DNA from: a candidate division FCPU426 bacterium
GTDB lineage: Bacteria > Oederibacteriota > PGYV01 > Palsa-1178
NCBI GenBank assembly: GCA_003159495.1
Contig: PLPI01000145.1
Coordinates: 1 to 47,954, forward strand
DNA: 47,954 nucleotides
Reading direction: 5' to 3'
The first letter of the stretch is position 1. The number at the start of each line of letters is the position of its first letter. Positions 3,646 to 46,864 of this stretch are shown here, piece after piece. Position numbers and translations under genes: made by a program. The notes under the pieces are model-generated. The model was not told the DNA's origin. It worked only from the letters and a program-made list of their open reading frames with translations, and searched no databases.

Positions 3646-3880
3646 GCCGCGCTTTGTTTTGTTCCCGTATGGGCTCGACCTGTGTCGGCCCGAACCTGCT
3701 CCATACCACAGCCGTGCCCGGCTTGCCGTGCAGACGGAACTTTTTTACGGCCGTCGTCCGAAGTTTAGCTTGAGGCAGACCCGAAGAAAGAACGTTGACA
3801 TTAAAGTTTCACCTTAACTTAACTGACACAGTAGTTATTGTTGGACGACTGGCCATAAAAAAGTCCCGCCCGCCCGGCAC
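3646..3880 (+). repeat. Dispersed ~235 bp hairpin repeat, copy 1
   Basis: This non-coding block is repeated in the same orientation at 4734-4970, with roughly 80-85% identity by eye. It starts with GCCGCGCTTTGTTTTGTTCC. A first short hairpin pairs GGGC..CGAC with GTCG..GCCC (about 3671-3690). A long inverted repeat then pairs 3736-3759 with 3843-3867 around a conserved ~83 nt interior. It makes up most of the 392 bp gap between bioA and the next gene. No ORF in it looks real. Confidence 0.8.
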
Positions 3881-3981: not shown

Positions 3982-4719
3982 ATGAAAAATAAACTGGTTT
4001 TTATTTTTCTGACTCTTCTTATTATAATACCCGCGGGGCTGTCGGCCGGAATGATAAAGGGCAGCCAGTATGATACGGCCGTCAAATACGCGGATAAGGA
4101 CGAGTCGCCCGTGGTATTTTTTGATCCGGGAAGCGGGGACGCAAAAGGGTACATACTTTACGCCGATTTAAACGCCTCAGGGGAAAATGAGATGGTAATA
4201 CCCTACAGGATACATAAAACAGATGATGCAATAGAGGATAAGGCTGATATTTACAGGCAGACCCTTTCAGTGGATGTGGTATCCGCGGGAAAGAAATTCA
4301 GGGGTATGATGTCGGTTGACCTGGCCTACAGCTACACTCCCAGGGTATACCTTACAGCAGATAAAATAAGCGAAAACGAACTGCCGAAGGTTTTTTTGAT
4401 GGTGAATGACGGTGTGGACAAGAAATCCAAAAAGATGACCCTTATGTACTCAAGTTACGACAAAAAGGACAAAGCCAGGGAGCAGAAGATATTCGAGACG
4501 GATAAAATGCCGTGGGAGCTGATTCTTTACCAGTTTGACCCGTCCATCCCGACAATAACGGAGTTTGACATCAATTACGAGCAGAACTATGGAAAATATT
4601 ACATAAAGCCGCTGGACGACCCGTCCAAATCCGTGCGCGTCCCGCCGGCCTCAATGAAAAAATTCGAGGACGCCCTCAAAGACGCAAGGCACGACATATT
4701 TTTTGAATACGACGAATAA
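3982..4719 (+). CDS. Secreted protein of unknown function
   Basis: I do not recognise the family. The 245-residue product starts with a clear Sec signal peptide (MKNKLVFIFLTLLIIIPAG, cleavage likely near LSAG). The rest is hydrophilic, rich in Lys, Asp and Tyr, with no cysteines that stand out and no membrane segment, so a periplasmic or extracellular beta-rich protein is likely. A strong Shine-Dalgarno (AGGGAGGTTGAA) and its own promoter at 3923-3951 suggest an independent unit. The gene is framed by two direct copies of the same ~235 bp repeat, so it may have arrived or been shuffled together with them. No function is inferred. Confidence 0.85.
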   Translation: MKNKLVFIFLTLLIIIPAGLSAGMIKGSQYDTAVKYADKDESPVVFFDPGSGDAKGYILYADLNASGENEMVIPYRIHKTDDAIEDKADIYRQTLSVDVVSAGKKFRGMMSVDLAYSYTPRVYLTADKISENELPKVFLMVNDGVDKKSKKMTLMYSSYDKKDKAREQKIFETDKMPWELILYQFDPSIPTITEFDINYEQNYGKYYIKPLDDPSKSVRVPPASMKKFEDALKDARHDIFFEYDE

Positions 4720-4733
4720 TTATAAAACAGTAT

Positions 4734-4970
4734 GCCGCGCTTTGTTTTGTTCCTGTAGGGGCCGCCTCACATGGCGGCCCGAACCTGCTCCAAACCACAG
4801 CCGTGCCGGGTTTGCCTTAGCTGGCGGAACTTTTTTACGGCCGTCGTCCGAAGTTTGGCTTGAGGCAGACCCGGAGGAAGAACGTTGACATTAAAGTTTT
4901 ACCTTATCTTAACTGACACGGTAGTTATTGTTGGACGCCCGGCCATAAAAAAGTTCCGCCAGCTAAGGCC
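4734..4970 (+). repeat. Dispersed ~235 bp hairpin repeat, copy 2
   Basis: Second copy of the block at 3646-3880, same orientation. Here the short hairpin is perfect (GGGCCGCC pairs with GGCGGCCC around 4749-4770). The long arms are better preserved than in copy 1: 4817-4849 pairs with 4933-4966, each beginning at its outer end with TTAGCTGGCGGAACTTTTTT. The short-hairpin stem differs from copy 1 on both sides in a way that keeps pairing. It lies between the convergent genes at 3982-4719 and 5003-5617 and could also act as a terminator. Confidence 0.8.
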
Positions 4971-11829: not shown

Positions 11830-11857
11830 GGGCGGCTGAAAAAGCCGCCCTTTTTTT
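11830..11857 (+). terminator. Rho-independent terminator after ahcY
   Basis: GGGCGGCT (11830-11837) pairs with AGCCGCCC (11843-11850) around GAAAA, followed by seven T residues. Confidence 0.9.
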
Positions 11858-11984
11858 GGAAATTTAAAATTTAAAACCAAAAATCACAAGTATTAAATTG
11901 ATAATTAGGGACAAAATTACCGTATTTAATTTGATTGTTTAAAAGTTGTAATTTTTGATTTTGACTTTAAAATTTTGACTTTCC
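11858..11984. repeat. AT-rich palindromic repeat, copy 1
   Basis: Left arm 11858-11889 (AATTTAAAATTTAAAACCAA then AAATCACAA) is complementary to right arm 11946-11984 (TTGTAATTTTTGATTTTGAC and following). A second copy lies at 13028-13150. The interior differs between copies, while the arms are shared. Confidence 0.65.
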
Positions 11985-35518: not shown

Positions 35519-35640
35519 AAAGCATATGGATTTGCGGAAAATATATGTTAAAATAAAGAAAAAAGAGGAAATGCTGTATATTTGAACTTGAAGGGTACAA
35601 CCTGAAACGGATATAGAATCATGAATCAGGACCAGACCCC
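35519..35640. repeat. Family-A intergenic repeat, copy 1
   Basis: The block GGATTTGCGGAAAATATATG (35528-35547) and a 30 bp core at 35601-35630 (CCTGAAACGG...ATGAATCAGG, ends inverted CCTGA/TCAGG) recur at 36720-36898 and, core only, at 37822-37851. It has no coding signs. Confidence 0.75.
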
Positions 35641-36719: not shown

Positions 36720-36898
36720 AGCAATTGGATTTGCGGAAAATATATGTTAAAAGGTAAATTAGGGGATAAAGACGGGGCCATGCAGGATCATAAAAAGCGG
36801 CGGACTTGATAGGAAAGAAAAGTAAATATTCCATATTTGAACGTGAGTGGTGAATCCTGAAACGTATATAGAATTATGAATCAGGGACTGACCCTGAA
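36720..36898. repeat. Family-A intergenic repeat, copy 2
   Basis: Same order of elements as copy 1 (GGATTTGCGGAAAATATATG at 36726-36745, core 36856-36885) but with ~55 bp extra between them. Copies 1 and 2 bracket the PadR operon in direct orientation. Confidence 0.75.
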
Positions 36899-37706: not shown

Positions 37707-37821
37707 TTTTGTTGCGTATCAGATAAAGTTTTAAATTCGATTTTGAATAGAAACATGAATCAGAAGATAAAGGGCAAACCTTGATTTGAGCTTTGACCCG
37801 ATTTGAAGTTATAGATAATAA

Positions 37822-37851
37822 CCTGAAACGGATGTAAAATCATGAATCAGG
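37822..37851. repeat. Family-A repeat core, copy 3
   Basis: The 30 bp CCTGAAACGG...ATGAATCAGG core alone, between the nucleotidyltransferase and the next minus-strand gene. The nearby segment at 37756-37764 (CATGAATCAG) is a degenerate fragment of the same end. Confidence 0.7.
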
Positions 37852-37881
37852 ACACCTTTTTGTTGTTCCTTTTTGTTAAAT

Positions 37882-40190: not shown

Positions 40191-41156
40191 ATGGGGCGGC
40201 CATTACGTATTTTTTTACCCGGGTATTCATATCATGTGATAGCCCGTGGTAATGAACGCAAAAATATTTTTAAGGATGATATAGACAGGAAAAAGTTTTT
40301 TAAGATAATCGGAGAAGCCGCAAAAGAATACCAATTTTTTGTTTTGTCCTACGTATTGATGAGCAACCACTATCATTTTCTGATTGAAATAAAATTACCC
40401 AATATATCCCGTGCCATGCAATTCATTAATTCGAGTTATTCAATATACTTCAACCGAAAATATAAGAGAAGCGGACACCTGTTTCAGGGGAGGTTTGAAG
40501 CAATATTGGTCGAGCATGGACAGGATTTGCTTTATGTATCGGCATATATACACTTGAATCCCGGGCGGGCAGGTATGGTAGAACAGGTTATAGATTACCC
40601 CTGGAGCAGTTACAGGCAGTTTACCGGAGGAGCTGATGGAGGAATAGCCGTACCGGAAATAATACTGAAAATACTCTCGGAAAACAGGGTTGAAGCAGTA
40701 AAAAAATATGAAGAATATGTTAAAGCAACTGCGATAGAAAGCCCTGATAATGTAAGGAAACGAGTGTATGGCGAGTATATAATGGGAAGCGAGAGTTTTG
40801 TGCGAGATATAAAATTGCTGCTTAAGGGTAAAAATCTATCACAAGGCATAACCGGACGAAAAAAATTGAGGAAAATATATAATGAAGATCAGATAACCGA
40901 AGCTGTAAAAAAACATTACGATGCAGTAGATGAACTGTTATATAATAGGAGCAGGTGGGAAAATGGAAAGAACGTCTTAATGTTCCTGCTAAAAAGAGAT
41001 GGAGGCATGACATATGCCGCCATAGCAAAAAAGCTGGGAGACCGGGATTCGAGCGGCATAAGTAAGGCATGTAAGAAAGTTCTTGAACAAAATAGGAAAG
41101 AAGGGGAAATAAAAAAATGCATAAAAGACATAGAAAGAGAATACATTGAAAAATAG
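40191..41156 (+). CDS. REP-associated tyrosine transposase (Y1/HUH)
   Basis: A 321-residue single-strand transposase of the IS200/IS605-related RAYT group. It opens MGRPLRIFLPGYSYHVIARG, the family signature, then has the HUH metal-binding His60-Tyr61-His62 in LMSNHYHFLIE and the catalytic Tyr (most likely Tyr115) in LLYVSAYIHLNP. The C-terminal half adds a DnaA-like helix-turn-helix (GGMTYAAIAKKLGDRDSSGI). RAYT enzymes nick REP sequences at palindromes. Here the gene is flanked by 28 bp inverted repeats at 40089 and 41153; the right repeat overlaps the stop codon. A small promoter-like TTGACA (40123-40128) lies upstream. Confidence 0.92.
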   Translation: MGRPLRIFLPGYSYHVIARGNERKNIFKDDIDRKKFFKIIGEAAKEYQFFVLSYVLMSNHYHFLIEIKLPNISRAMQFINSSYSIYFNRKYKRSGHLFQGRFEAILVEHGQDLLYVSAYIHLNPGRAGMVEQVIDYPWSSYRQFTGGADGGIAVPEIILKILSENRVEAVKKYEEYVKATAIESPDNVRKRVYGEYIMGSESFVRDIKLLLKGKNLSQGITGRKKLRKIYNEDQITEAVKKHYDAVDELLYNRSRWENGKNVLMFLLKRDGGMTYAAIAKKLGDRDSSGISKACKKVLEQNRKEGEIKKCIKDIEREYIEK

Positions 41157-41693: not shown

Positions 41694-42206
41694 TTATTCT
41701 TCTTTGCCGGGAAAGCCCTTTCTGTCATTATTAATATTGCGTTTGAACATGCCTTTTAGCATCTTTTGCTGTTCCCCGGTAAGTACCATTTTGAATTTAA
41801 GCATATTGTGCACCTGGTTGGTCATCATTTCCTTTTGTAAGACTGACATTTCTGCAATTATCTCATCAAGTTTTTTTTCATCGGGAGAATCTTTGTTTAT
41901 TTCGGATTTCATCTTTTCCATATTTTTGCGCATGAGTTTACGATTTTTTTCTTCAACCGCCGAAGTTTCCTTTTCTATGGCTTTTATTTTATCAAATTGG
42001 TCGCCTGTTAAATTGAGTTCATCCGCAAAATATAGTATTGAAGGCGGCTGCATCGGGCCTCCGGGCCCTCCATGTGCCATGGCAGGGGGAGGAAAACCAT
42101 CCGGATTCGCTCCGTCATTGCCAGCCGGGGGCGTGCCGGCATAAAGGATAAAGGCTAAAGCCGAGAACAATAAAACAAGAAATGTTGTTAAAAGATTTTT
42201 TTTCAT
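41694..42206 (-). CDS. Spy/CpxP-like periplasmic protein
   Basis: A 170-residue periplasmic protein with a signal peptide (TTFLVLLFSALAFILYAG) and a Gly/Pro-rich start. It then has the LTxxQ-type motif twice: DELNLTGDQFDKIKAIEKE and MVLTGEQQKMLKGMF, as in the Spy/CpxP/CnrX family of envelope-stress chaperones and metal sensors. It overlaps the anti-sigma gene by 4 bp (ATGA) at the end of the sigma operon, so it is most likely a sensor or effector of the same stress response. Confidence 0.85.
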   Translation of the reverse strand: MKKNLLTTFLVLLFSALAFILYAGTPPAGNDGANPDGFPPPAMAHGGPGGPMQPPSILYFADELNLTGDQFDKIKAIEKETSAVEEKNRKLMRKNMEKMKSEINKDSPDEKKLDEIIAEMSVLQKEMMTNQVHNMLKFKMVLTGEQQKMLKGMFKRNINNDRKGFPGKEE

Positions 42207-42632: not shown

Positions 42633-43103
42633 TTATACCTCCTTGCATGCTGATGCGGCCATTTTTGTTATGCCGCTGCTTATTCGTGATCTTATGGTAC
42701 CCAGACTAACATTTAATATTGAAGCCACTTCTTTTTGTGAAAAACCACATATTTCATAAAGCAGTATCGCGGAACGCTGCTCAACCGTTATAGTTTCAAG
42801 CATGAAATAGAGCAGTAATGAATCGTCGTTCATGGCTGGTCTTATATCCAGCATAGATTTTTCCGCCCTGCTGGTCTGGGAACGGTGTTTTCTTATATAA
42901 TCAATTGACTGATTTATAACCATCCTGTAAAGGAACGTTTTTATTGAAGAATCGCCGTTAAATGAAGACAGCTTATTCTCCAGTTTGACAAAAACATCCT
43001 GCAGTACGTCTTCTGCATCCATTGTGTTTCCCAGCATGCGCAATGCTACATTATATACGAATTTCGAGTACCTGGAATAGATATCTTTCAAATTTTCGCC
43101 CAT
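42633..43103 (-). CDS. ECF-type RNA polymerase sigma factor
   Basis: A 156-residue sigma70-family extracytoplasmic-function factor with region 2 (YSRYSKFVYNVALRMLGNTM then DAEDVLQDVFVKLENKL) and region 4 (EICGFSQKEVASILNVSLGT then IRSRISSG). Regions 1 and 3 are absent, as expected. It starts at ATG 43103 with AAGGAG. Its upstream sequence has an ECF-type promoter on each strand (GGAAC ... GTCTAA), so it should positively autoregulate its own operon and also drive flgD. A truncated 5' copy of this gene sits at 46464-46565. Confidence 0.93.
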   Translation of the reverse strand: MGENLKDIYSRYSKFVYNVALRMLGNTMDAEDVLQDVFVKLENKLSSFNGDSSIKTFLYRMVINQSIDYIRKHRSQTSRAEKSMLDIRPAMNDDSLLLYFMLETITVEQRSAILLYEICGFSQKEVASILNVSLGTIRSRISSGITKMAASACKEV

Positions 43104-43135
43104 TCGGCTCCTTGTCCATTAGTTCTTTATACAAT

Positions 43136-43164
43136 TTAGACGCAACAACCGTAAAATAGGTTCC
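43136..43164 (-). promoter_or_regulatory. ECF-type promoter of the sigma operon
   Basis: On the minus strand, GGAAC (43164-43160), 18 bp, GTCTAA (43141-43136), the RpoE-type pattern. The transcript would start about 25 nt before the ATG at 43103. Confidence 0.75.
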
Positions 43165-43177
43165 GTGCATTTTTTAT

Positions 43178-43207
43178 GGAACAGTATGCACCCCGGGTTG
43201 CGTCTAA
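43178..43207 (+). promoter_or_regulatory. ECF-type promoter of flgD
   Basis: GGAAC (43178-43182), 19 bp, GTCTAA (43202-43207). The leftward promoter has the same elements; TTTAGACGCAAC and GTTGCGTCTAAA form an inverted repeat across the pair. A strong AGGAGGTGA follows before ATG 43252. Confidence 0.72.
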
Positions 43208-43251
43208 AGTAATGAAAGTGAAAATATTTAAATAGAAAGGAGGTGAACCTT

Positions 43252-43569
43252 ATGACAATATCGTCAATTTCTTTCACAACGGTTACAGGGTATGTAACTT
43301 CGTCATCCGCTTCGACAAACCAGGTAACCAATCCGGACAGCGACCTGACGGAAAATGATTTTCTGGAGATGTTTATAACAAAACTTGAAAATCAGGATCC
43401 GCTGTCTGTGAGCGACGAGGATTTTACATCCGAAATTGCACAGTTTTCTTCTCTGGAACAGGAAACAACGACAAACAGTTCACTGAGTACAATGTCCACT
43501 TCAATCTCGAGCCTGGAAACCGAAATGACCGCTTCGGTTACTGAGGACGGCACGTCACAGGCGGTTTAA
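43252..43569 (+). CDS. flgD: Short FlgD-like flagellar hook-capping protein
   Basis: FlgD caps the growing hook and guides hook-protein assembly. This 105-residue protein has the conserved FlgD N-terminal pattern DFLEMFITKLENQDPLSVSD followed by FTSEIAQFSSLEQ, preceded by a Ser/Thr-rich leader. The C-terminal FnIII/tudor-like domains of full-length FlgD (over 200 residues) are absent, as in the minimal FlgD of some bacteria. The ATG at 43252, after AGGAGGTGA, is preferred to GTG 43243. The upstream promoter is ECF-type rather than the usual flagellar sigma54/sigma28. A truncated copy lies at 46717. Confidence 0.82.
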   Translation: MTISSISFTTVTGYVTSSSASTNQVTNPDSDLTENDFLEMFITKLENQDPLSVSDEDFTSEIAQFSSLEQETTTNSSLSTMSTSISSLETEMTASVTEDGTSQAV

Positions 43570-43619
43570 ATGGTGGGCAAAAGTGTGTTAAAAAATTGGG
43601 TTTATGGAGGATTTGTCAG

Positions 43620-43790
43620 ATGAATGAATGTAAAAGTAATACTTTAAAAGAGGAAAAAATAAAAGGCATAATGCGCACATACAATTTCGACCGCAAAACG
43701 TCCGAAAGGATATATATAATGATAAAGGATACGGACATACTGGAATCAAATTTTCTGGATATCAGCCCGGAAGATAAAGACGATAGGTAA
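43620..43790 (+). CDS. Small 56-residue protein downstream of flgD
   Basis: ATG at 43620 behind ATGGAGGATTTG gives 56 residues (MNECKSNTLKEEKIKGIMRT, then KTSERIYIMIKDTDILES). It is charged and helical, without a known family or signal peptide. It lies in the same direction as flgD, 50 bp downstream, so it may be a second flagellar accessory. The frame continues 8 codons upstream to a TTG, but the ATG fits the ribosome site better. Confidence 0.55.
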   Translation: MNECKSNTLKEEKIKGIMRTYNFDRKTSERIYIMIKDTDILESNFLDISPEDKDDR

Positions 43791-44105
43791 TTGAACAAAC
43801 AGAGTCTAATGCAATTATAACAGCATTATTTTGTAATCAAAATGGTATTACTTTGTTTTTTAAAAAGAAGGAATGGAATGGATTAATGCAGATGCTTGCG
43901 GTTTGGGCCCGTCAGAAGTTTTAATAATATCTAATGCGTATATAAAGTTATTTACGATGATCTTAATATCCTTTTTAAACCCTCTTTCGGTCCTGATGAA
44001 ACCCAAAAAATTCCTTAAATTTGAATATATTTTTTTCAATTTAATATAATACATCACACGGCTTTGTGAATAAAAAAGCCCGGCTTTTTGTATACAATAA
44101 AAAAA
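43791..44105. other. 315 bp gap between convergent genes
   Basis: AT-rich, no gene. The only feature I can support is the hairpin terminator at 44073-44089. Confidence 0.7.
44073..44089. terminator. Bidirectional hairpin terminator
   Basis: AAAAAGC (44073-44079), CCG loop, GCTTTTT (44083-44089). A/T tracts on both sides let it act for the leftward flgK and the rightward small gene. Confidence 0.65.
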
Positions 44106-46268
44106 TTAATCGGAGGTAGTTGAAGAAGTGGATGAGGTTCCGGTATTGTTAATAAGCGTATTGAGCATCTGGTCTATCACATTCTCCAGCCTGACAGCTG
44201 CGTCATATCCACGCTGGTAAATAGCGGCCTGCGCCTCTTCGTTGTCGGAATTAACCTGTGTCACCTGTTTCTGCATTGTCTGAAGCTGCGTCAGGGAATC
44301 CTGATACTGGGTCAGCATGTTTGAAGCTGTCGTGGAATCGGTGGACAATTTGTCCATATTGGACTGGTAAATATCGTCAAATGTAACATTGCCCACAAGA
44401 TTTAGGGCCTGGGTAAAATTGCCCTTTAAATCCGTCACCTGAAATGACTGGACCACATTTGTGCTCAATTGTGAAGCCGGTTGGTTGCCAAGGACAAATT
44501 TTTGTCCCGCGGCCTGGGTTGTGGCGTAGCCGTTTGGAAAAGACGACATTATGGCCATGCCATCCATTTTTATCCAGTCGCCGTTGTTCCAGTTTGTCAC
44601 AGTTTCCGTACCGTTTGTTGTCAGCGCAACCTGTCCCGAGGAAGTAGGCATTGTATTAAGTTTGTACTCCTGATTAAGCCATGAAGCTGAAGTAAGGTTC
44701 ACTCCGGCATTGCTTGAATATGGATAATCAACATTCGCGGCAGACCACTGCTCTTCTTTTAAACCCCATTTTGAAAGCAATACAGATGCCTCAGTTGTTG
44801 ATTTTGTGTCCGTGATGTTAAGCCCCTGGCTGCTGAATATCCAAAGCGACTTTGTGCTGTCGTTGAAAACAGCTGAAACAGTTCCCCCTCCGGCCGTATT
44901 GATGGCATCCACAAGCCCCGCCACGGTCGTTGTCGAGTTATAATTAACGGTTATACTGTTATTAATGGTTATAGTATCCGGACTGGCCGCCGTGGCCGTC
45001 ACGCCGGCCAGAGATAGCGTCTGGTTGCTGCTCAGCCCTATATTTGTAGTGTAAGTGAAGGTTGAAACGAGCTTATTACCCAGATTCCCCAGTATTGAGG
45101 CAATATCATTGGATACATAATCTGATCCGGAAAAATTGGATGAGTAGGCAATATTAGACGGCGTAGACTTTGTCGGATCAACTCCAATGTTCATTGCGTC
45201 AGTTCCTGTAAAAAAATTCGTTGCCTGCGCCCCGCCTGCCACCAGCTTGCCCGATGTTTCAACCTGATTGACAACCGTAATAAGGCTGTTTGCGGTTTCA
45301 TCAAGGGCGGTCTGATATGACTGGACAATCGTGTCCCTGGAGTTAAGGATTCCCGCTATTTCTCCGCCGGTTACAGCCGCGGTTGGAATTACAGTTCCGG
45401 TCCCGCCGCCGCCTGCCGCAGTTATTCCAAGCAGCGGATAATTAGGATCCTGTGACTGGAGCGTTAATGCCGATGGATCATTGCCTGTTACAGGCACCAC
45501 GGTTGTAAGCAAATTATAACTGGTTGCTCCGCTTACAAGCGGGTTGCCGTCTATAATAAGTGTAACGGTACCGTCTGTGCTTGTCTGTGTGGTGAAATTT
45601 ATCAGTTCGGAAAGACTTGTCATTGCCGCAGTGCGCTGATCAAGAAGGTCGTTGGGGCTCTGGCCCGAAGCGTAAACCTGTTTTATTTCTCCGTTTAACG
45701 TATATATCTGCTTTATATAATTATTTGCCTTATTAATATCGTCTTTCAGGTCTGTCGTCAAATCCGTCCTCATATTGCTTAAACTTTCTGCTTCTGAATT
45801 TAGCGTGCTTGTCATGGCGGTGGCGTCCTGATACAACGTGTTCTGAGCGCTTAAGATTCCGCTGGCCGAGCCGGACGCGGACTGTGTGGCAAGGTTCTGC
45901 CAATCCGTAAAAAACTGCGTTATCTGTGTCTGCAGGCCGCTTGTCGTACCGTCTTCTTCCGGAAAAATCGCATCCAGGTTCTGGTACGTCCTGTTAATTA
46001 TGGATTCACTTCCAACCTTATTTTCCGCTTCCATTATCTGGCTGTCGAGGTAAATATCCCTTATCCTTTCGACCCCGCTTAGCTGTGAGCCCGTCCCTAT
46101 CTGCCCGCCGGTGATGGAAAAAGGTTGGCTTGAGGTTATATCGGCAAGCTGCCTGGAGTAGCTTGAATCCGACATATTGGCCACGTTGTGCACCGTGGTG
46201 TCAATGGCATAAGAATAGACCTGCAAAGCCTTCATCGCGGTATTAAGCCCCATCATTAAATTAAGCAT
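44106..46268 (-). CDS. flgK: FlgK hook-associated protein 1
   Basis: FlgK joins the flagellar hook to the filament. The 720-residue protein has the conserved N-terminal helix pair (LNLMMGLNTAMKALQVYSYA then TTVHNVANMSDSSYSRQ) and LSGVERIRDIYLDSQIMEAE. The central part is long and Ser/Thr/Asn-rich. The C-terminal coiled coil includes ASNMLTQYQDSLTQLQTMQK and ends with a hydrophobic EN(V)xxQML segment. Typical FlgK is 450-650 residues; the extra length is in the middle, exposed domain. AAAGGAG precedes the ATG. Upstream, the duplicated ECF promoter at 46600-46628 points toward it. Confidence 0.93.
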   Translation of the reverse strand: MLNLMMGLNTAMKALQVYSYAIDTTVHNVANMSDSSYSRQLADITSSQPFSITGGQIGTGSQLSGVERIRDIYLDSQIMEAENKVGSESIINRTYQNLDAIFPEEDGTTSGLQTQITQFFTDWQNLATQSASGSASGILSAQNTLYQDATAMTSTLNSEAESLSNMRTDLTTDLKDDINKANNYIKQIYTLNGEIKQVYASGQSPNDLLDQRTAAMTSLSELINFTTQTSTDGTVTLIIDGNPLVSGATSYNLLTTVVPVTGNDPSALTLQSQDPNYPLLGITAAGGGGTGTVIPTAAVTGGEIAGILNSRDTIVQSYQTALDETANSLITVVNQVETSGKLVAGGAQATNFFTGTDAMNIGVDPTKSTPSNIAYSSNFSGSDYVSNDIASILGNLGNKLVSTFTYTTNIGLSSNQTLSLAGVTATAASPDTITINNSITVNYNSTTTVAGLVDAINTAGGGTVSAVFNDSTKSLWIFSSQGLNITDTKSTTEASVLLSKWGLKEEQWSAANVDYPYSSNAGVNLTSASWLNQEYKLNTMPTSSGQVALTTNGTETVTNWNNGDWIKMDGMAIMSSFPNGYATTQAAGQKFVLGNQPASQLSTNVVQSFQVTDLKGNFTQALNLVGNVTFDDIYQSNMDKLSTDSTTASNMLTQYQDSLTQLQTMQKQVTQVNSDNEEAQAAIYQRGYDAAVRLENVIDQMLNTLINNTGTSSTSSTTSD

Positions 46269-46463
46269 ATTATTTCTCCTTTCACTCCATTATATTTTTT
46301 CTGACAAAAGATATATCGTGTAATTAACAGAAAACTTTAGCGTATGTGTTTTTTGGAAGTTTTAATCACACTAGAATATTTACCTACCCTATATTGGGTG
46401 ATTTCCACCCATCTATTTTTTTTACGGCCTTCTTCTGTGTCGTTGTTTGCAACAGGAGAGAGT

Positions 46464-46565
46464 TCACACGTCTTCCGCATCCATTGTGTTTCTCAGCATG
46501 CGCAATGCTGCATTATATGCGAATTCCGGGTACCTGGAATAGATATCTTCCAAATTTTCGCCCAT
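46464..46565 (-). pseudogene. Truncated 5' copy of the ECF sigma gene
   Basis: 33 codons matching the start of the sigma factor (MGENLEDIYSRYPEFAYNAA then LRMLRNTMDAEDV, stop TGA at 46464-46466). It lies in the same orientation as the functional gene relative to its promoter. It is the remnant carried over in the duplication. Confidence 0.85.
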
Positions 46566-46599
46566 CCGGGCTTCCTTGTCCATGTGTGCTTTATACAAT

Positions 46600-46628
46600 T
46601 TAGACGCAACATCCGTAAAATAGGTTCC
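46600..46628 (-). promoter_or_regulatory. Duplicated ECF-type promoter facing flgK
   Basis: On the minus strand, GGAAC (46628-46624), 18 bp, GTCTAA (46605-46600), identical elements and spacing to the sigma operon promoter. It faces flgK, whose ATG is about 330 bp away with no gene in between except the 33-codon remnant. Confidence 0.65.
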
Positions 46629-46641
46629 ATGCGTTTTTCAT

Positions 46642-46671
46642 TGAACAGAATACACCCCGGGTTGCGTCTAA
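46642..46671 (+). promoter_or_regulatory. Duplicated ECF-type promoter facing the edge gene
   Basis: TGAAC (46642-46646), 19 bp, GTCTAA (46666-46671). One base of the -35 differs from GGAAC, so it may be weaker. Confidence 0.55.
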
Positions 46672-46716
46672 AATAATGTAAGTGAAAATATTTTAAAAAG
46701 AAAGAAGGTGAACCTT

Positions 46717-46821
46717 ATGACGGTATCGTCAACTTCTTTCACAACGGTTACAGGGTATGTAACTTCGTCATCTAATGTAAAAGAAAAGTTTCAAGCGGGT
46801 TCTATTACCCCGCGACACTGA
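46717..46821 (+). pseudogene. Truncated 5' copy of flgD
   Basis: 34 codons from ATG 46717 (MTVSSTSFTTVTGYVTSSSN, then unrelated residues to TGA 46819-46821). The first ~19 codons match flgD; the reading then leaves the homology. Confidence 0.8.
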
Positions 46822-46864
46822 TGGCCTGGACCGTAAGGAGGGCCTTAAGTACGGAGGACGGACT

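Follow-up and report, generated by a model that had tools for sequence, protein, structure and literature searches.

A duplicated divergent ECF-type promoter block next to second copies of flagellar hook genes in a candidate division FCPU426 bacterium

Results

Gene content of the locus

The window, a contig of 47,954 nt analysed over its entire length (C26), belongs to a 3.05 Mb assembly consisting of 145 contigs with a completeness of 97.8% and a contamination of 1.5%. G000 refers to this genome, G001–G013 to 13 relatives of the same order, and C numbers to contigs. The features of interest (Table 1) comprise an operon for an ECF sigma factor, a putative anti-sigma factor and a Spy-like protein, followed by genes of the flagellar hook apparatus. 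The latter are second copies, as the primary flgK resides on C51 and the primary fliK and flgD on C13.

Table 1. Features of the sigma/flgD2 locus and of the adjoining flgK2–fliK2 region (positions in the window)
Feature	Position	Strand	Basis or remark
Spy/CnrX-like periplasmic protein	41694..42206	-	Pfam LTXXQ 2e-8, Metal_resist 3e-8
Putative anti-sigma factor, ZAS-type HX3CX2C motif (HLEACTEC) and one hydrophobic segment	42203..42631	-	sequence reading
ECF sigma factor gene, 156 aa, regions 2 and 4	42633..43103	-	Pfam Sigma70_r2 4e-19, Sigma70_r4_2 3e-12
Cassette copy 1	43006..43307		sigma gene start, two divergent ECF promoters, flgD2 start
ECF promoter GGAAC-N18-GTCTAA	43136-43164	-	faces sigma operon
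ECF promoter GGAAC-N19-GTCTAA	43178-43207	+	faces flgD2
flgD2, second FlgD paralogue, 105 aa	43252..43569	+	Pfam FlgD 1e-14; comparison with G003 and C13 FlgD
orfS, 56-aa protein, family unassigned	43620..43790	+	adjoins flgD2
flgK2, second flgK copy	44106..46268	-	TIGR02492, 251.6 bits, cut-off 170.75
flgM-flgN-flgK promoter-region homologue	46266..46354	-	C51 25463-25551, 87%; joined directly to flgK2
Sigma28-type promoter TAAA-N15-CACGATA of flgK2	46314..46339	-	conserved before flgM
Sigma gene stub	46464..46565	-	severed at left border of cassette; 33 codons
Cassette copy 2	46468..46772		sequence match to copy 1
ECF promoter GGAAC-N18-GTCTAA	46600-46628	-	faces flgK2, ~325 bp from flgK2 start
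ECF promoter, altered -35, TGAAC-N19-GTCTAA	46642-46671	+	faces fliK2
flgD2 stub	46717..46821	+	begins at its ATG, passes from cassette into fliK leader
fliK leader (structured RNA)	46773..46864	+	copy of the leader in the C13 fliK operon; sigma70-type promoter lacking
fliK2, second fliK copy, GTG start, cut by contig end	46865..47954	+	homology to C13 fliK

No Pfam match to region 3 was obtained for the window sigma factor, and a search with its protein sequence yielded only distant ECF genes from other phyla. The profile matches of the anti-sigma candidate all stay below the cut-off (NCBIfam ChrR 4e-5 and RsrA 3e-4; zf-HC2 0.07). The periplasmic protein reaches 35.3 bits against LTXXQ (cut-off 24.3) and, below the cut-off, 2e-11 against NCBIfam Spy. 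An ECF-type promoter precedes the sigma gene both in the window and in the relatives, and the three genes are best explained as an autoregulated envelope-stress operon.

The FlgD N-terminal domain is clearly recognizable in flgD2 (54.8 bits, cut-off 27), which ends with an in-frame TAA at the expected start of the Tudor domain. This C-terminal domain is absent from the window flgD2, scores above the cut-off in the C13 copy (flgD1) and gives weak sub-cut-off matches in G003 and G009; after its loss, the window flgD2 may be turning into a pseudogene. The neighbouring orfS has a single paralogue, found on C38 (stretch L072, 3908-4117) directly behind an ECF promoter of its own. Among the 41 genomes searched, orfS (56–69 aa) occurs only in this genome, with both copies behind ECF promoters. 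Its identification as a FlgM-like anti-sigma28 factor was rejected (hhalign probability 0.1%).

The duplicated cassette

A segment of ~302–305 bp is present twice in the window at a spacing of ~3.46 kb (90% identity, E 2e-116; 276 matches, 18 transitions, 8 transversions and 3 gap columns in the alignment), and a search of the rest of the genome yielded no third copy. The repeat as such was correctly recognized in the preliminary description, whose observations are partly confirmed. Of the two divergent GGAAC-N18/19-GTCTAA promoters reported for each copy, three sites are exact, while the -35 element of the fliK-facing site reads TGAAC. The -10 blocks are identical at all four sites, and the 12-mer GTTGCGTCTAAA is found exactly at each of them and nowhere else in the window.

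Two further statements on copy 2 need correction. The flanking gene ends, described as decayed to stubs of 33 and 34 codons, instead stop where the repeat stops, and the adjoining bases are different sequence, which on the right is the fliK leader known from C13. Moreover, the promoter elements had been regarded as kept, but their conservation is no better than the ~9% background divergence of the two copies, at which at most one change among the 22 promoter bases is expected with P = 0.42; selection on the copy-2 promoter bases is therefore indistinguishable from background. The sigma stub itself has accumulated six nonsynonymous and two synonymous changes, a near-neutral pattern.

A genome-wide ECF promoter type

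Exact matches to GGAAC-N15..21-GTCTAA number three in the window compared with 0.09 expected by chance. Scanning the genome with GGAAC-N16..20-GTCTAA retrieved 10 matches, every one of which reads CGTCTAA and is 29–30 nt long, neither property being imposed by the pattern; a second scan with GAAC-N17..19-CGTCTAA retrieved 14. Nearly all of them precede sigma genes, bamA, tolC-like, spy-like or dnaJ-like genes, or orfS. Among the products of the downstream genes are BamA with its POTRA repeats, outer-membrane and chaperone-like proteins of the TolC and DnaJ types, proteins resembling Spy, small secreted proteins and, on C51, another ECF sigma factor; together they form an envelope-stress set. 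The data support the assignment of the window sites to a genome-wide ECF promoter type with such targets, in line with the promoter class originally proposed. A few matches may have arisen by chance because one on C10 lacks a convincing target gene and reversed control patterns give 4–5 matches in the genome. The targets are not assignable to a single sigma factor, since the C51 sigma factor, 44% identical to that of the window, uses a similar promoter; its orthologues in G001, G002, G003, G004 and G013 are associated with the same promoter kind.

Age of the sigma–flgD2 pairing

Two FlgD genes were found in four genomes of the phylum sample, and in three of these (G000, G003 and G009) the second one is located at an ECF-sigma locus. 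In G003 (C72), which represents another genus, the sigma gene and a full-length flgD2 are divergently arranged with GCAAC-N18-GTCTAA in both directions. The matched -35 change in the two promoters would fit a co-evolution with the sigma factor. The flgD2 proteins of G000 and G003 group together in the tree (support 82/97), and the G009 FlgD is unplaced. In G009 (C200), a member of another family, the sigma, anti-sigma and spy genes and one further gene precede flgD on the same strand; downstream of flgD come an ECF-type promoter and a gene of the tolC type. The comparison with relatives suggested earlier thus recovers the sigma–flgD2 link in G003 and G009, and indicates that the pairing is ancestral in the family and much older than the cassette duplication. 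With an ECF promoter directly 5' of flgD2 that is conserved in G000 and G003, predicted ECF control of this gene is well supported.

flgK2 and its sigma28-type promoter

Window positions 44019-46298 match C51 26398-28709. The two flgK copies share 88% of their amino acids (dS 0.80), and purifying selection acts on flgK2 (dN/dS 0.10). On C51, flgM-flgN-flgK come after flgF-flgJ, and the segment joined to flgK2 corresponds to the region before flgM, so that flgM and flgN are missing between the operon promoter region and flgK2. This segment has retained a sigma28-type promoter ~45 bp upstream of the flgK2 start, and the site (TAAA-N15-yACGATA) is conserved before flgM in C51, G002, G003, G005 and G013. 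No promoter exchange is thus visible at flgK2, and any ECF control of this gene would at most be additional to that by sigma28.

fliK2 and its leader

The gene tentatively named fliK in the preliminary description is indeed a fliK paralogue. It is 78% identical at the amino acid level to the C13 fliK, which carries the FliK domain PF02120 (C-terminal Flg_hook), and is open over 363 codons with dN/dS 0.29 and dS 0.44. Its leader is 92% identical to that of C13. The homology starts at C13:11889, just past the -10 box of a sigma70-type promoter TTGACA-N17-TATACT (11856-11884), which precedes fliK in most relatives compared; fliK2 has thus retained the leader without the promoter, and the cassette is joined in its place. 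The junction shows a replacement of the native sigma70-type promoter by the cassette exactly at this point, which makes ECF control of fliK2 plausible. Because the cassette has diverged by only ~9%, its duplication probably postdates the copying of flgK2 and fliK2, provided that neither gene conversion nor constraint has distorted the comparison.

The leaders compared (window 46773-46864; C13 11889-11976 in L071; fliK leaders in L154, L161 and L166–L172) contain a hairpin of 7 bp in which six of the seven pairs show double compensatory changes (seven sequences), followed in 11 fliK leader sequences of the order by an invariant GGCCYGGACCGYAAGG..GGCC. Rfam gave no real match for the window region and two relatives' fliK leaders. 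At the contig end (47853-47954) fliK2 reaches 99% identity to C13 fliK, and the remainder of the gene was found on no other contig of the genome; the contig end is likely a collapsed repeat.

Primary flagellar genes and the apparent lack of flagellin

Control of flagellar hook genes usually lies with sigma54/sigma28 or is of the sigma70 type. The primary fliK is embedded in flgB-flgC-fliE-F-G-H-I-J-K-flgD-flgE on C13. A search for further GGAAC-N18/19-GTCTAA sites before flagellar genes had been recommended; in the C13 and C51 stretches examined, none was found at the primary flgK, fliK and flgD, the only ECF site being that before the C51 sigma gene. A spread of ECF control to the primary flagellar operons is thereby ruled out for these stretches, and the primary genes seem unaffected by it as far as seen. 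The idea that ECF control acts in place of sigma54/sigma28 is not supported, in view of this result and of the retained sigma28-type promoter of flgK2.

A search for Flagellin_N (PF00669), the family comprising flagellin and FlgL, gave no match in the 14 genomes of the order (G000 and its 13 relatives), although genes for the hook, FlgK and motor-type proteins are present; four other genomes of the phylum have three matches each. After flgK, an lnt-like gene and not flgL is found in G000, G002, G003, G005 and G013. Judged from reading the translations, G002 and G005 seem to possess motB, fliL, fliM and flhA genes; an apparent motA was recognized in G002 alone, the stretch from G005 being cut at that point. 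A FliA-family sigma factor in G005 scores above the NCBIfam cut-off. A divergent filament protein in the order is possible. Because Flagellin_N was not found in 14 of 14 genomes, the flagellar product of the order may be a hook structure without a filament; a literature search for flagellin-less hook structures in candidate phyla gave nothing useful.

Discussion

The repeat, the promoter motif, the junctions, the promoter exchange at fliK2, the retained sigma28 site at flgK2 and the conserved sigma–flgD2 arrangement are seen directly in the sequence; transcription, induction by envelope stress and any effect on hook assembly are inferred. The most satisfactory explanation, to which we assign a probability of roughly 0.6, is that an old divergent ECF/flgD2 promoter was copied between flgK2 and fliK2 and swapped in at fliK2. 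In this scenario, the divergent promoter of the sigma operon would also drive flgD2 and orfS. Extra copies of flgK and fliK would have come to lie beside the sigma/flgD2 locus in this lineage, before the ~300-bp block was copied between them and landed in place of the sigma70-type promoter of fliK2 and upstream of the sigma28-type promoter of flgK2. Upon release of the sigma factor by the anti-sigma factor, flgD2-orfS would be transcribed and, with the weaker -35 element, probably fliK2 as well, and flgK2 might acquire a second transcript that depends on stress; for the primary flagellar operons, the usual control would persist. The original interpretation is thus partly supported: the duplication may have extended ECF control to fliK2 at most, and perhaps to flgK2, but the link to flgD is far older.

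A doubtful but serious alternative regards copy 2 as a neutral by-product of segmental duplication, with flgK2 expressed from its sigma28 promoter, fliK2 silent or read through, and only the old sigma/flgD2 pair at work. It would account for the background-level conservation of the copy-2 promoter bases, the near-neutral sigma stub, the drifted fliK-facing -35 element and the presence of an own promoter at flgK2. Less easily reconciled with it are the unchanged -10 blocks at all four sites and the state of fliK2, whose reading frame has stayed open without the native promoter, at a dN/dS of 0.29 and behind a leader still 92% identical to that of C13.

That repeats misled assembly or binning, so that flgK, cassette and fliK from a single genome or from a strain mixture were joined, appears improbable. 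The fragmentation into 145 contigs and the contig end inside fliK2, at the 99% stretch with the rest of the gene on no other contig, would be compatible with such an error. However, 26 sites distinguish the two cassettes, and both flgK2 and fliK2 are 17% different from their partners, which argues against one sequence having been used twice; the dS of 0.8 between the flgK copies is far beyond strain variation, and contamination is low (1.5%). We consider it highly improbable that the cassette motifs are chance matches without any ECF promoter. A consensus match is no proof, and the reversed patterns also find a few sites, but the uniform CGTCTAA and length of all matches, the expectation of 0.09 in the window, and the divergent pair with matched -35 changes in another genus are hardly explained by coincidence.

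The enterobacterial sigma-E (RpoE) regulon and CnrYXH-type ECF operons use GGAAC/GTCTAA promoters, have BamA, periplasmic chaperones and outer-membrane proteins as targets, and combine the sigma factor with an anti-sigma factor in the membrane and a Spy/CnrX-like partner in the periplasm. Promoter type, kinds of targets and, with an anti-sigma factor that is putative, the sigma/anti-sigma/Spy-CnrX set recur here, whereas a flgD paralogue and orfS in the predicted regulon are peculiar to the present system. The promoter capture by duplication seen at fliK2 resembles the case of citT in the Lenski experiment, in which a duplicated segment reportedly placed a promoter before a gene lacking one; here, by contrast, the duplicated piece is a short block of divergent promoters that carries gene stubs, came to lie between two paralogues and has since diverged by ~9%. 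The term promoter capture occurs in PMC4718724.

In Azospirillum brasilense, the ECF sigma/anti-sigma pair RpoE6/Asf6 controls genes of the hook-filament junction and the filament, and is encoded beside flgD, flgE, flgK, flgL, fliC2, fliD and fliS (PMC12826043). The likeness, an ECF sigma factor and an anti-sigma factor (putative in the window) encoded beside flagellar genes, is a parallel which does not imply orthology of the sigma factors. RpoE6/Asf6 acts on filament and junction genes including flagellin; here, second hook-cap and hook-length genes would be concerned, a Spy-like protein belongs to the operon, and no flagellin was detected in the genome.

If correct, the conserved link between ECF sigma factor and hook cap together with the promoter swap at fliK2 would show envelope-stress control grafted onto hook assembly. 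That the order seemingly has no flagellin raises the question of what role a hook, a motor and a sigma28 system play without a known filament. As a speculation, which we rate as unlikely, the ECF sigma factor might direct the formation of a stress hook with alternative cap (FlgD2), length-control (FliK2) and distal junction (FlgK2) proteins, by which a filament-less rotating or secreting hook is remodelled upon envelope damage in an order apparently devoid of flagellin and FlgL.

Other repeats were noticed elsewhere in the window. A direct repeat (3683-3873 and 4772-4963; 92%, spacing ~1.09 kb) flanks a gene at 3982-4719. Repeats of ~53 nt (CCTGAAACGGATATAGAATCATGAATCAGGA) occur at 35580-35632, 36835-36887 and 37801-37853, a few kb from a gene for a Y1-type (IS200-like) transposase with a DnaA-C-like tail (40191-41156), with which they possibly constitute a REP/RAYT pair.
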